In this document: one piece after another, positions 34,578-39,536 of the stretch
Layout: each line of letters begins with the position of its first letter
Position numbering within the stretch: the stretch's first letter is position 1
Origin: an uncultured Bacteroidia bacterium
GTDB taxonomy: Bacteria > Bacteroidota > Bacteroidia > JANWVE01
DNA length: 52,706 nucleotides
NCBI GenBank assembly: GCA_938028625.1
Contig: CALIZB010000089.1
Location: forward strand, 1 to 52,706
Direction: 5' to 3'
Made by a program: the position numbers and the translations under genes
Notes under the pieces: model-generated
Seen by the model: the letters and a program-made list of their open reading frames with translations, nothing else
What the model was told of the DNA's origin: nothing
The model's database searches: none

Positions 34578-36056
34578 ATGAAAAAACTTATACTATCTTG
34601 CTTAATCTTGTTTTTAACTGGTATATGTACCAATGCACAAACCTATATTATGACGAATGGTACAGTAAGTACATGTTCAGGCCTTTTCTATGACTCTGGG
34701 GGCGCATCAGGCAACTATGCAAATAATGAGAATTTTACTTATACCATCTGTGCTACAGGCGGACAATGTGTAAGAGTAAGTTTTACTTCTTTTAACATAG
34801 AGAGCGGGTATGATTATTTATACATCTATAATGGTCCCAGTACTGCGTCTCCATTGATAGGCACTTATACAGGCACAACTAGTCCAGGCGTAATAACCTC
34901 TACAACAGGCTGTCTGACTTTTAGGTTCACATCTGATTATATCATTACGGCACCCGGTTGGACAGCAACTATAACTTGTGTTCCTTGTGGTAGTGGTCCT
35001 GTTACTGCAAGCAACTGCACAGATGCTGTGACTGTCTGTACTAATCTTACCTTTGCAGTAGACCCCAATGGTTTTGGTACTATAAATGAAATATGTCCCG
35101 CGGGTACTTGCGCTGCAAATCCAAACACAAATCCTGCAAGTAGCAATTATGGCTGTTTATTAGCAGGAGAACTAAATAGCACTTGGTTGCTCGTTACGAT
35201 TACAGCCCCTGGAACTTTAGAATTTAGCTTTGGGGATAACACTACACCATATCCTCAGTCTGGCTGCTATGATTGGTCTATGTGGCCGTACTCCGCTACT
35301 GCTTGCTCGCAGATACTGGCAGGTACGCTTGCACCTATACGATGTAATTGGAATTCACCTTGTAATGGCGGAACAGGTATAGCTGCACCTGCCAATATTC
35401 CTCCCGGCGGCTGGGCTACTAACTTTGAACCCCCCCTCACTGTAACCACAGGACAACAGTTTGTTATCTGTTTCTCTAATTATAGTGGTCTGACAACTAA
35501 CGTACCTTTGCGTTTCTTTGGTACAGCAGGTATAGCTTGTACTCTACCCATAGAGTTTCTCAATGCTTCGGCTATTCAGAAAGGAAAAGAAGGTAGAATT
35601 TTATGGAAAGCACCGAATAACACACAATACACTAAAACCTATCTTATAGAAAAACAAGTCAGTAACAATACATGGGAAGTGATTTCTAATGTTGCTTTTG
35701 TTAGTGGTCAAACTAGTTATGAAGCTACTGATAAAAAGCTTCATGTAGGTAACAATGTATATAGAATTACCCAAATTCATAAAGATGGCGGATATGGCTA
35801 CGCTGAAACCATAGAGCTAAACGTCAGTGAACTTCCCGCTTTTACTTTCTATCCTAATCCTGTGGTAAATATACTAAATTTACAACTCAACACTACTCAA
35901 ACTTATCGTGTAGCTATACTTAATACTGCGGGACAACTCATCTATAATAACACGGTGAATAATCTTAATGAGTTGCAGGTTGATATGAGTAAATTCTCAG
36001 CAGGTAACTATTGGTTGCGTGTCAATGAGGAGATAGTACCTTTTGTAAAACAATAA
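34578..36056 (+). CDS. Secreted CUB-domain protein with T9SS type A sorting domain
   Basis: 492 residues from the ATG at 34578. This start gives a clean signal peptide (MKKLILSCLILFLTGICTNAQ) and has GGAGG in front; the longer frame overlaps the previous gene. Residues about 22-135 form a CUB domain (CSGLFYDSGGASGNYANNENFTYTIC, VSFTSFNIESGYDYLYIYNG, GCLTFRFTSD). Residues about 140-320 are a beta-rich domain with paired cysteines (NCTDAVTVCTN, GCYDWSMWPY), of the kind that recurs in Bacteroidota surface proteins. The C terminus has a type A sorting domain (FTFYPNPVVNILNLQL, GQLIYNNTV, FSAGNYWLRV). It should be secreted through the type IX system. No protease or glycosidase motif is seen. A strong terminator follows. 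Confidence 0.85.
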   Translation: MKKLILSCLILFLTGICTNAQTYIMTNGTVSTCSGLFYDSGGASGNYANNENFTYTICATGGQCVRVSFTSFNIESGYDYLYIYNGPSTASPLIGTYTGTTSPGVITSTTGCLTFRFTSDYIITAPGWTATITCVPCGSGPVTASNCTDAVTVCTNLTFAVDPNGFGTINEICPAGTCAANPNTNPASSNYGCLLAGELNSTWLLVTITAPGTLEFSFGDNTTPYPQSGCYDWSMWPYSATACSQILAGTLAPIRCNWNSPCNGGTGIAAPANIPPGGWATNFEPPLTVTTGQQFVICFSNYSGLTTNVPLRFFGTAGIACTLPIEFLNASAIQKGKEGRILWKAPNNTQYTKTYLIEKQVSNNTWEVISNVAFVSGQTSYEATDKKLHVGNNVYRITQIHKDGGYGYAETIELNVSELPAFTFYPNPVVNILNLQLNTTQTYRVAILNTAGQLIYNNTVNNLNELQVDMSKFSAGNYWLRVNEEIVPFVKQ

Positions 36057-36200: not shown

Positions 36201-36545
36201 TTAAGATACAGCTTTTACAATTTGGGCAAAAGCCTCTGCATGATGGACAGCAAGATAAGCTAATGCTTTGCGGTTGATAACAATATTTTTGGCATGCAAT
36301 TTACCCATAAATACAGAGTAAGACATTCCGTGCATTCTCACAGCCGCATTGATTCGCTGAATCCAAAGGGCGCGAAAATCACGTTTTTTGAGTTTTCTGC
36401 CTTTGTATGAATGTTGCATGGCTTTTTCTACCGTATTTTTAGCTACGGTGTACACTTTGCTTCTAGCGCCCCAGTAACCGCGGGCGGCCTTCATGATTTT
36501 TTTTCTTCTCGCTTTTGATGCTACTGAATTTACTGAACGTGGCAT
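36201..36545 (-). CDS. rplT: 50S ribosomal protein L20
   Basis: 114 residues, the standard length. Conserved blocks are [44 protein letters not shown] and [27 protein letters not shown]20 is an early assembly protein that binds 23S rRNA. The order infC-rpmI-rplT is universal in bacteria. An 87-nt gap separates it from rpmI and holds a separate TAATTTTG promoter element followed by GCAGTCCA, a block also found before infC. I see no obvious L20-binding leader structure. Confidence 0.97.
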
Positions 36546-36632: not shown

Positions 36633-36827
36633 TTAAATTAACAACAAACGTTTAACTCTTTTTATATCCGCACTGCTTACTACTGAATCTTGGTTCAGAT
36701 GACGCTTGCGTTTGGTAGCTTTTTTGGTCAGGATATGACGCATATACGCTTTTTTGCGTTTTACTTTTCCTGTTCCTGTAAGGGCGAAACGCTTTTTTGC
36801 CCCTGAATTTGTCTTTAACTTTGGCAT
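36633..36827 (-). CDS. rpmI: 50S ribosomal protein L35
   Basis: 64 residues: [45 protein letters not shown] and a short tail. This is the standard bL35 sequence, a small basic protein of the large subunit. It is placed 26 nt after infC and shares its transcript. The gene is followed directly by the rplT promoter. Confidence 0.96.
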
Positions 36828-36853: not shown

Positions 36854-37399
36854 TTATTTTTTGGTCTTGTTGGGAATAAGTATCATGAACATTCTTTTTC
36901 CTTCTAACTTAGGTTCCATCTCTACTTTGGCGTGTTCTCCCATAGCCTCTGCAAAACGTTTCAGCAAATCTTCTCCCCTGTTCTTGTACACAATACTTCT
37001 TCCATGAAAATGGACATAACATTTTACTTTATGCCCTTTTTGTATAAACTCTACAGCATGCTTGAGCTTAAAGTTAAAGTCATGGTCATCAGTATTAGGA
37101 CCAAAACGAATTTCTTTAACCTCAACCACCTGTTGCTTTTTTTTAAGTTCTTTCTCCCGTTTTTTGAACTCATATTTGAGTTTTGAATAATCCGAGATTT
37201 TGCACACTGGCGGGTCTGCATTAGGCGCAATTTCAATCAGATCCAGGCCTTCCTGCTGGGCTAAATCCAAAGCCTCCTGAAGGGTCATAATCTGGTTTAT
37301 ACCTTCCGCCAATACCCGAACCGTAGGGGATTGAATTTCATCATTAATTTTATATAATTCTTTGTTTTTCTTAGAATTATTTTTTTTATTCTCTTCCAA
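36854..37399 (-). CDS. infC: Translation initiation factor IF-3, TTG start
   Basis: 181 residues. The N domain has YKINDEIQSPTVRVLAEGINQIMTLQEALDLAQQEGLDLIEIAPNADPPVCKISDYSKLKYE; a linker rich in Lys/Glu follows. The C domain has KEIRFGPNTDDHDFNFKLKHAVEFIQKGHKVKCYVHFHGR and ends KMFMILIPN-like (KRMFMILIPNKTKK). IF-3 inspects the start codon and initiator tRNA on the 30S subunit. The start must be the TTG at 37399: an in-frame TAG lies only 12 nt upstream and no ATG occurs before the conserved N domain. A strong AAGGAG (37404-37409) precedes it by 4 nt, which is exceptional in this window. Non-AUG starts on infC allow autoregulation in other bacteria. Confidence 0.96.
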   Translation of the reverse strand: MEENKKNNSKKNKELYKINDEIQSPTVRVLAEGINQIMTLQEALDLAQQEGLDLIEIAPNADPPVCKISDYSKLKYEFKKREKELKKKQQVVEVKEIRFGPNTDDHDFNFKLKHAVEFIQKGHKVKCYVHFHGRSIVYKNRGEDLLKRFAEAMGEHAKVEMEPKLEGKRMFMILIPNKTKK

Positions 37400-37403
37400 G
37401 TAT

Positions 37404-37409
37404 CTCCTT
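37404..37409 (-). promoter_or_regulatory. Shine-Dalgarno AAGGAG of infC
   Basis: Located 4 nt before the TTG start. It is the strongest such site seen in the window and decides the start. Confidence 0.75.
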
Positions 37410-37414
37410 CTCTA

Positions 37415-37432
37415 AAATTGGACTGCAAAACT
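37415..37432 (-). promoter_or_regulatory. Probable infC promoter: GAGTTTTG followed by GCAGTCCA
   Basis: The -7 element deviates from TAnnTTTG at its first base (GA for TA). The following GCAGTCCA matches the block after the rplT element. Confidence 0.45.
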
Positions 37433-37508: not shown

Positions 37509-39536
37509 ATGAAAACCGTAGATATTCAGGAAAAAATTGTAAAGTTAGCTCAGTTAATCAACGAGCATAATCATCGTTATTATGTGCAGAATGCACCTGT
37601 TATTTCAGATTTTGAGTTTGATGCTTTATTAAAAGAACTGACTGAACTAGAAGCAAAATATCCTGAATTTATTCTACCTGATTCTCCAACTCAAAGAGTA
37701 GGTGCGGATATAACCAAAAAATTTCCTACTATTGAACATGAAGTTCAAATGCTGAGTTTAGATAATAGTTATTCTATTCAAGAAATAAAAGAATTTGACG
37801 AAAGAATACAAAAAGGGCTGGAGAGCAAACATTATGAATATACCTGTGAACTTAAAATTGACGGCTTGGCTATTAGCATAGTATATGAAAAAGGCAAACT
37901 CAAATATGCTGCTACACGTGGAGATGGAAAAATAGGTGAAGTGGTAACCAATAATGTAAAAACAATTAAAACTATTCCCTTAAAATTACACGGTGATAAT
38001 ACTCCTGATTATGTAGAAATTCGGGGCGAGGTATACATAACTAAATCTAATTTTGAAAAAATCAATCAAAATAGAATAGAGATAGGAGAAGAACCGTATG
38101 CTAATCCCCGTAATTTTGCATCAGGAACACTAAAATTACAAGACCCACGCGAAGTTGCCAAAAGAAAATTGGATTTCTTTCCGTATTTTGTACGATTAAG
38201 AGAAAATGAAACCAAGTTAAGTATTAAAACTCAATATGAAAGTTTTGAGTGGCTGAAAAAATGGGGCTTCAAGGTTAATCCCAATATTGAACTGTGCAAA
38301 AACTTAACCGAAGTAGAAAAATATCTTACTCAATGGCAAACAAAACGCTATACTTTGGATTACGAAACTGATGGCGTAGTGGTTAAAATCAATGATTATG
38401 CACAACAAAGTATTTTGGGTAATACTTCAAAATTTCCACGATGGGCAATTGCTTACAAATATGCCGCAGAGCAAGTAGAAACAGTTTTACAGAGCGTTAG
38501 TTTTCAAGTAGGTAGAACAGGAATAATAACTCCTGTGGCTAATTTAAGCCCTGTTCAATTAGGGGGCACAGTAGTTAAACGAGCAACGTTACATAATGCC
38601 CAAGAAATAAAAAGATTAGATTTGCACGAGCAGGATACTGTATTTATTGAAAAGGGAGGAGAAATTATTCCCAAAGTTGTACGTGTAAATGTAGAGAAAC
38701 GCAAAAAAACTGCACACCCTATTGTTTTTCTTACTCACTGTCCTGAATGTAATACACCTTTACAAGTCAGCGAAACAGGTATACATTATTATTGTCCTAA
38801 TAGTTATCAGTGTCCCCCGCAGATTGTAGGCAGAATTGTTCATTTTGTACGCAGGAATGCTATGGATATTCAAGCTATTGGAGAAGAAAAAGTAGAACAG
38901 TTCTACAAAGCAGGACTTATCCGTACTCCCGCAGATTTATATAAAATAAAAATGGAAGATTTGCTGAAATTAGAACGCTTTGGTAAAAAATTAGCAGAAA
39001 ACGTAATAAAAGGTATAGAACAAAGTAAAACTCAGCCTTTTGAACGGGTATTGTTTGCTTTGGGCATCCGTTATGTAGGCGAAACCGTAGCCATAAAATT
39101 AGCCCATCATTTCAAAGATATAGATAATCTGTTTAATGCCAAAGCGGAAGAAATCAGTCAGGTGTATGAAATCGGAGAAAAAATTGCGCAGTCTGTTACA
39201 GAAGCCGCTAAAAATCCGTATTATACTCAGCTTGTACAAGAACTCAAACAGGCAGGACTTCAATTCAAAACAGATGAAGATAAAATTCAAAATACATTGG
39301 TATCTAATAAATTACAAGGTTTAACTTTCTTAGCAACGGGAACTATGAAAAACTTTTCGCGCGAACAGATAGAAAAAACCATACGTGAAAACGGAGGAAA
39401 AGTAGCTTCATCAATTTCTAAAAATTTATCTTATCTGATTGTAGGCAACGAACCCGGTGAGTCCAAAATTAAAAAAGCTAAAGAACTCAATGTCAAAATG
39501 ATTTCTGAAGAAGAGTTTATCAATATGTTAAAATAA
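37509..39536 (+). CDS. ligA: NAD-dependent DNA ligase LigA
   Basis: 675 residues, normal length. LigA seals nicks in replication and repair using NAD+. The N-terminal Ia/adenylation part has HNHRYYVQNAPVISDFEFDALLKEL and SLDNSYS; the AMP-accepting Lys is in ELKIDGLAISI. EIRGEVYI, the OB fold, and a four-Cys zinc finger (CPECNTPLQVSETGIHYYCPN..QCPPQ) follow. HhH repeats surround ALGIRYVGETVAIKLAHHF and YEIGEKIAQSV. A C-terminal BRCT domain (LQGLTFLATGTMKNFSREQIEKTI and LSYLIVGNEPGESKIKKAKELNVKMISEEEF) completes it. All motifs are present. It is divergent from infC with a 109-nt gap. Confidence 0.97.
   Translation: MKTVDIQEKIVKLAQLINEHNHRYYVQNAPVISDFEFDALLKELTELEAKYPEFILPDSPTQRVGADITKKFPTIEHEVQMLSLDNSYSIQEIKEFDERIQKGLESKHYEYTCELKIDGLAISIVYEKGKLKYAATRGDGKIGEVVTNNVKTIKTIPLKLHGDNTPDYVEIRGEVYITKSNFEKINQNRIEIGEEPYANPRNFASGTLKLQDPREVAKRKLDFFPYFVRLRENETKLSIKTQYESFEWLKKWGFKVNPNIELCKNLTEVEKYLTQWQTKRYTLDYETDGVVVKINDYAQQSILGNTSKFPRWAIAYKYAAEQVETVLQSVSFQVGRTGIITPVANLSPVQLGGTVVKRATLHNAQEIKRLDLHEQDTVFIEKGGEIIPKVVRVNVEKRKKTAHPIVFLTHCPECNTPLQVSETGIHYYCPNSYQCPPQIVGRIVHFVRRNAMDIQAIGEEKVEQFYKAGLIRTPADLYKIKMEDLLKLERFGKKLAENVIKGIEQSKTQPFERVLFALGIRYVGETVAIKLAHHFKDIDNLFNAKAEEISQVYEIGEKIAQSVTEAAKNPYYTQLVQELKQAGLQFKTDEDKIQNTLVSNKLQGLTFLATGTMKNFSREQIEKTIRENGGKVASSISKNLSYLIVGNEPGESKIKKAKELNVKMISEEEFINMLK

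Follow-up and report, generated by a model that had tools for sequence, protein, structure and literature searches.

A forced TTG start codon behind a Shine-Dalgarno sequence at infC in a Bacteroidia genome where such sequences are rare

On the minus strand of the analysed stretch of DNA (52,706 nt from an uncultured Bacteroidia bacterium, hereafter the window) lies infC at 36854-37399, an open reading frame (ORF) of 181 aa counted from a TTG codon. The ORF matches the IF3_N profile with E=1.1e-24, and as this was the single match of a profile search of the genome, infC is single-copy and its product is translation initiation factor IF3. The downstream neighbours on the same strand, rpmI (bL35, 36633-36827) and rplT (bL20, 36201-36545), were named from the sequences of their ORFs and both start with ATG. 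Divergently, on the plus strand, the ORF list places a gene at 37509-39536, which from its sequence we take to be ligA, encoding an NAD-dependent DNA ligase.

At the infC start the minus strand reads TAG AGA AGG AGA TAC TTG GAA GAG AAT. The TAG (37412-37414, minus strand) closes the infC frame with 12 nt between it and the TTG (37397-37399, minus strand). No ATG occurs between this TAG and the conserved IF3 motif, TTG is the sole codon in that interval among the eight start-like kinds checked, and an in-frame ATG first appears at codon 38. Hence the TTG start is forced, because of the TAG 12 nt upstream and the lack of any ATG before the N-terminal motif of IF3, which confirms what a sequence-only reading of this DNA had claimed. 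The Shine-Dalgarno (SD) sequence AAGGAG that it had placed 4 nt ahead of the TTG was likewise found there, at 37404-37409 on the minus strand.

The leader on the minus strand runs TTTTGCAGTCC AATTTTAGAGAAGGAGATAC and then TTG GAA GAG AAT. The first of these elements (37420-37430, minus strand) is identical in two further species of the genus and is probably the -7 promoter element of infC, of the Bacteroidota type. This assignment builds on TAnnTTTG, which we take to be the Bacteroidota -7 consensus and of which the infC box fits the TTTG half only. It also builds on boxes of similar sequence that lie a short way upstream of many other ORFs, as well as of rpsU, which in this genome has the TTTGCAGTCC box ahead of it. 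With the -7 element placed here the infC leader would be roughly 20 nt long. A regulatory leader structure was considered and set aside, since the leader would be this short and its folding is weak, at -6.1 kcal/mol over 80 nt; no leader RNA family of Rfam matched the window at the gathering threshold.

Pairing energies were computed with RNAduplex and a 12-nt 16S tail. The infC SD pairs at -9.7 kcal/mol with the tail CACCUCCUUUCU, no 16S gene having been found in the window genome's assembly or in those of the two congeners. This value or better was reached by 2.3% of 5000 shuffles of the window leader and by 45 of 5546 arbitrary 19-nt pieces of the window, so taken alone the SD is just moderately beyond chance.

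It gains weight from the congeners (G001 and G002), both of which have an SD at the same place. Their IF3 proteins are 82 and 86% identical to that of the window, as compared with 46-59% for 55 other relatives, and their leaders align with the window through the common TTTTGCAGTCCAA, GGAGA and GGAAGAGAATAAAAAA. G001 reads TAG ATT ACG, giving ATT or ACG as the infC start, and G002 reads ACT ACG. The SD before the ACG pairs at -13.6 kcal/mol in G001 and -13.1 kcal/mol in G002, strengths matched by 0.36% and 0.14%, respectively, of 5000 leader shuffles. At the aligned position the start codon has thus turned over between TTG and ACG with the SD retained in all three species, and we take the persisting trait to be that the codon is not ATG. 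In E. coli, AUG, GUG and UUG form the group of starts tolerated by IF3, and TTG belongs to the mildest class of non-AUG codons. The TTG itself is therefore a weaker argument than the codons found in the congeners, ACG or ATT.

In the window and in G001 the TAG excludes a start further upstream or an extension of infC; the G002 frame is open and enters the promoter-like box. That the start has simply been mis-called, through a sequencing error at the start codon or because translation begins elsewhere, seems very improbable. The assembly is a draft, the SD spacing is short, and the open frame of G002 offers an in-frame TTG inside its promoter-like box, all of which would suit such an error. Against it, the two other assemblies also have no ATG at this position and are identical over the next 15 bases, and in the window the promoter-like box lies 20 nt upstream with no other candidate codon in frame.

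How rare SDs are in this genome was assessed on the window and 13 further stretches (165 kb), which together cover about 218 kb of the 2.9-Mb genome. At the first ATG, 140 ORFs (one of them an artefact, the internal ATG of infC) had a mean pairing of -0.45 versus -1.26 in a mock window lying further upstream, and a single ORF, an Hsp20 gene, reached -8 kcal/mol or better (mock 0). When any NTG within the first 40 codons was accepted, 7 of 143 ORFs reached -8.5 kcal/mol (mock 0), with infC ranked third and the Hsp20 gene also included; several of these seven NTGs are probably not true starts. SDs in this genome are rare, not absent. The sequence-only reading, in which the genome otherwise lacked them, was thus close to correct for first-ATG starts and too strict once any early NTG is counted. 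For named Bacteroidota genomes with the canonical tail, a passage of PMC10783764 prints SD shares of 1-2%.

The Hsp20 gene has a strong SD in so SD-poor a genome (locus L059, 12219-12638, minus strand; also L218 and L219). One hsp20 gene in each of the genus's three species carries the SD AGAAAGGAG at -13.4 kcal/mol; 7 hsp20 genes were found in the genus, of which 4 were parsed and 3 of those had the SD. It is stronger than the SD of infC, and infC is not the sole SD gene. Its presence across three species hints at a canonical 16S tail that may be put to use in the genus. Another rare SD stands at 34578 on the plus strand, where CGGAGGACAGATT precedes the ATG of a probable secreted protein (MKKLILSCLILFLTGICTNA...) at -9.5 kcal/mol. 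Among four relatives with a 16S gene the CCTCC core is present in G004, G058 and G041 and altered in G023. The latter genome (L186, L100 and L056) has the tail CATCTCATTTT instead of CACCTCCTTTCT together with a His at residue 54 of bS21, and its infC has a non-ATG start with no SD.

The sequence-only reading had further held that the anti-SD is shielded by bS21. According to parts of PMC9976891, the bS21 residue that stacks on the 16S tail in F. johnsoniae is Tyr54, and Y54A is among the mutants used for SD reporter tests. We found bS21 in 57 genomes and compared 30 rpsU loci, where residue 54 is Tyr in 26, Arg in 3 and His in 1 (G023). The three Arg are those of the window genus (L090, L075 and L080), whose rpsU genes have no SD in any of the three species. 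Shielding by bS21 is therefore doubtful here, and the usual arrangement cannot be assumed for the genus.

With Tyr54 lost, the anti-SD may be less shielded, and infC, hsp20 and perhaps genes for secreted proteins may all make use of it. It is possible, and compatible with IF3 feedback, that the infC SD belongs to such a small general set in the genus. Both the replacement of Tyr54 by Arg in all three species, in a sample otherwise Tyr or His, and the conserved hsp20 SD along with the 7 of 143 SD-bearing ORFs (mock 0) speak for this. Yet SDs at first-ATG starts remain depleted relative to the mock window, and the infC SD is also found in 10 of 25 genomes that keep Tyr54.

Control of the kind known for rpsU, in which infC would be read by bS21-lacking ribosomes with a free anti-SD and IF3 would be linked to the supply of bS21, we consider improbable. 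Ribosomes lacking bS21 do prefer mRNAs with strong SDs in F. johnsoniae (in parts of PMC9976891), and two genomes, G006 and G047, carry SDs of -8.5 kcal/mol or better on infC and rpsU alike. But among the 29 genomes with both genes the infC SD occurs in 13 and the rpsU SD in 7, and only these two have both. The rpsU SDs pair at -14 to -21 kcal/mol versus -9.7 here (computed with different programs, and with a 13-nt versus a 12-nt tail), and rpsU starts with ATG in 30 of 30 loci. Further, the window genus has neither the rpsU SD nor Tyr54, and the product of infC is not part of the anti-SD pocket.

For a class-wide view of the infC start in Bacteroidota we collected 58 loci from 60 genomes (own included; 2 had no IF3_N match) and 80 from named genomes, the latter being the best 80 of 593 matches listed and hence an uneven sample; after removal of one duplicate among the 138, 137 loci remained. 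An in-frame ATG was counted as usable if it lay 9 to 60 codons ahead of the IF3 motif. No such ATG exists in 88 of the 137 infC loci, 83 of them closed by a stop, while the other 49 have one. The loci without ATG make up 48 of 58 from the genome search and 40 of 79 from the named genomes. At the same loci rpmI and rplT, each located by a short motif in 103 of the 137, are without ATG in 0 of 103 cases each.

An SD of -8.5 kcal/mol or better was present at 36 of the 88 non-ATG infC loci, as against 12 in the mock window, with the remaining 52 below the threshold. The 12 mock hits arise partly because downstream candidate codons meet the same SD in their mock window, and they mark the SD test as loose. 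Among the 49 ATG-bearing loci 8 had such an SD (mock 4), in all 8 at a non-ATG codon and in 3 also at an ATG; the neighbours gave 0 of 103 for rpmI (mock 3) and 1 of 103 for rplT (mock 4). Forty of the 137 loci have a GGAG-type SD, and the best-spaced codon behind it is ATA in 24, ATC in 8, ATT in 5, ACG in 2, TTG in 1 and ATG in none; L170 is counted here but doubtful, and four of the 44 SD-positive loci (L004, L038, L051 and L140) fall outside the 40, with no GGAG in range. Among the 40 loci the spacing is 4 nt in the window only and between 6 and 11 nt in the others; 6 and 9 nt account for 15 loci apiece, and we judged these two peaks to be due to chance or shared descent.

By eye, and within this sample, a plain ATG with no SD is seen in nearly all loci of Bacteroidaceae/Prevotellaceae and in all those of Crocinitomicaceae, ten Flavobacteriaceae loci have ATA and no SD, Hymenobacter pairs ATA with an SD and two Cyclobacteriaceae pair ATT with one. 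In the Sphingobacteriaceae clade TTG is on offer in 9 of 10 loci by eye, mostly with no SD, and three also have an ATG; infC with ATG and no SD also occurs in Chitinophagaceae. An ATG is available in 49 of the 137 loci, and in 41 of these no non-ATG codon is backed by an SD, so the SD-backed weak start is dispensable. On an infC tree the non-ATG state changes at least 14 times and the SD at least 22 times; 55 of its 133 inner branches are open and some branches are long, including that of the window infC. The organism belongs to the class of Hymenobacter, as locus L022 (G059, of that class) matches the named locus L133 without a difference over 210 nt. The association of SD and non-ATG start was not significant over independent pairs (7 pairs, mean 1.6 agreeing and 0 disagreeing, median p 0.5); for this test the 8 loci that have an ATG and also a non-ATG codon backed by an SD were scored as non-ATG.

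A phylum-wide draw gave 97 matches among 99 genomes, and in 27 of 28 newly fetched loci, 3 of them from the same class, there was no ATG, with ATC frequent by eye and some anchors misplaced; with 28 of 97 loci and imperfect anchors this is a lead only. At infC, five genomes of a family outside the class (f57; L189, L191, L199, L209 and L215) carry GAGGT with ATC after it, suggesting that ATC serves as the start in them.

The window genus thus has a forced non-ATG infC start together with an SD, kept in the three species compared, and this recurs in the class. The likeliest role of the infC start would be IF3 autoregulation, and we lean towards the view that SD and forced non-ATG codon together form the known weak-start device with IF3 feedback. 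infC would then be translated from a non-AUG codon, assisted by the SD, on a short leader. When free IF3 is plentiful, it would strip the 30S complex from this weak codon, and translation of infC would drop; when IF3 is scarce, the SD would hold the 30S subunit at the leader and so give time for initiation at TTG (ACG or ATT in the congeners). What we infer in this account is how long the leader is, that ribosomes use the SD, and the IF3 feedback.

The forced TTG, the rare SD, its conservation in the congeners and its recurrence in the class are the trace expected of the SD-dependent, IF3-sensitive switch that the sequence-only reading had proposed; the mildness of TTG, the outlying 4-nt spacing of the SD, the doubtful shielding and the existence of other SD genes count against it. 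The alignment of infC 5' regions named there as a check gave a divided answer. ATG with no SD, set beforehand as the refuting result, was absent from the three species of the genus, all of which have a non-ATG start with an SD, and present in distant lineages.

It could also be that the weak codon sets a fixed expression level, where a non-AUG start keeps IF3 low and the SD restores the level, with no sensing of IF3; we find this rather unlikely. The tolerance of UUG by E. coli IF3 would agree with it, as would the drift of the codon among TTG, ACG, ATT, ATA and ATC, which is expected if a set strength is what counts. It would also agree with non-canonical starts in S. aureus giving about 10% of the AUG output in poor medium, as stated in a passage of PMC13009471. 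Still, rpmI and rplT, likewise needed in fixed amounts, never lack an ATG in the 103 loci each where they were located. The trait sits on the one gene that encodes a judge of start codons, and it does so in E. coli, B. subtilis and S. aureus as well.

We tentatively put forward a wider picture, in which Bacteroidia keep an infC SD paired with AUA, AUC, AUU, ACG or UUG and IF3 feedback would act through an otherwise silenced anti-SD, hidden by annotation. IF3 of the two congeners would begin at ACG, or at ATT in one of them, and the genus, its anti-SD pocket altered (bS21 Y54R), would keep SDs on a few genes, infC and hsp20 among them. Such starts would be hidden because annotation admits ATG, GTG and TTG only, and many Bacteroidota genomes may then carry a wrongly annotated infC start. 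Bacteroidia are regarded as having abandoned SDs, with ribosomal protein genes such as rpsU and rpsR as the main exceptions. If the account is true, infC would join the ribosomal protein genes as another kind of gene where SD pairing matters in Bacteroidia, and IF3 autocontrol through a poor start codon would span Proteobacteria, Bacillota and Bacteroidota. infC also offers a direct reporter test of non-AUG starts on ribosomes that largely ignore SDs.

Among the titles and abstract openings listed, a scope that leaves aside preprints, most subscription papers and supplements, none concerned an SD or non-AUG start of infC in Bacteroidia. The name infC is absent from the main texts of four papers on translation or SDs in Bacteroidia (PMC9976891, PMC8710568, PMC6847099 and PMC10783764), and the infC passages in PMC10931766, PMC6728339, PMC4245954 and PMC13009471 deal with E. 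coli, B. subtilis or S. aureus only.

The closest known system is that of E. coli, where thrS lies directly upstream of infC. The AUU start and the autocontrol by IF3 were reportedly described by Butler et al. in 1986 and 1987 and by Brombach and Pon in 1987, and a change of AUU to AUG is said, going by the title of a paper, to abolish the autocontrol; infC is also said to be on the list of a survey of genes preferring non-AUG starts in many phyla. The E. coli and window loci are alike in the gene, the non-AUG start and the SD ahead of it. They differ in that the window has TTG (ACG in the congeners), thrS is not directly upstream of infC in the window, the genome is SD-poor and the feedback is hypothetical. 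Passages of PMC1805508 give AUU as the infC start in both E. coli and B. subtilis, and state that of four E. coli genes with ATT infC alone has an SD strong enough for prediction; a passage of PMC10931766 places E. coli infC under IF3 regulation. In S. aureus infC has AUA behind a predicted extended SD, which the authors, in a passage of PMC13009471, read as likely auto-regulation. AUA is also the commonest SD-paired codon of the same gene in our Bacteroidota set, whereas S. aureus uses SDs generally and the window copy has TTG. Within the class, the extended SD of rpsU in Flavobacteriales, with autoregulation by bS21 (in parts of PMC9976891), is similar in being an SD on a translation gene where SDs are few. 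It differs from infC in its ATG start, its far stronger pairing and a product that itself shields the anti-SD, and the window genus has neither the rpsU SD nor Tyr54. The window is one, rather mild, case of the known non-AUG infC start, inside an SD-poor class.
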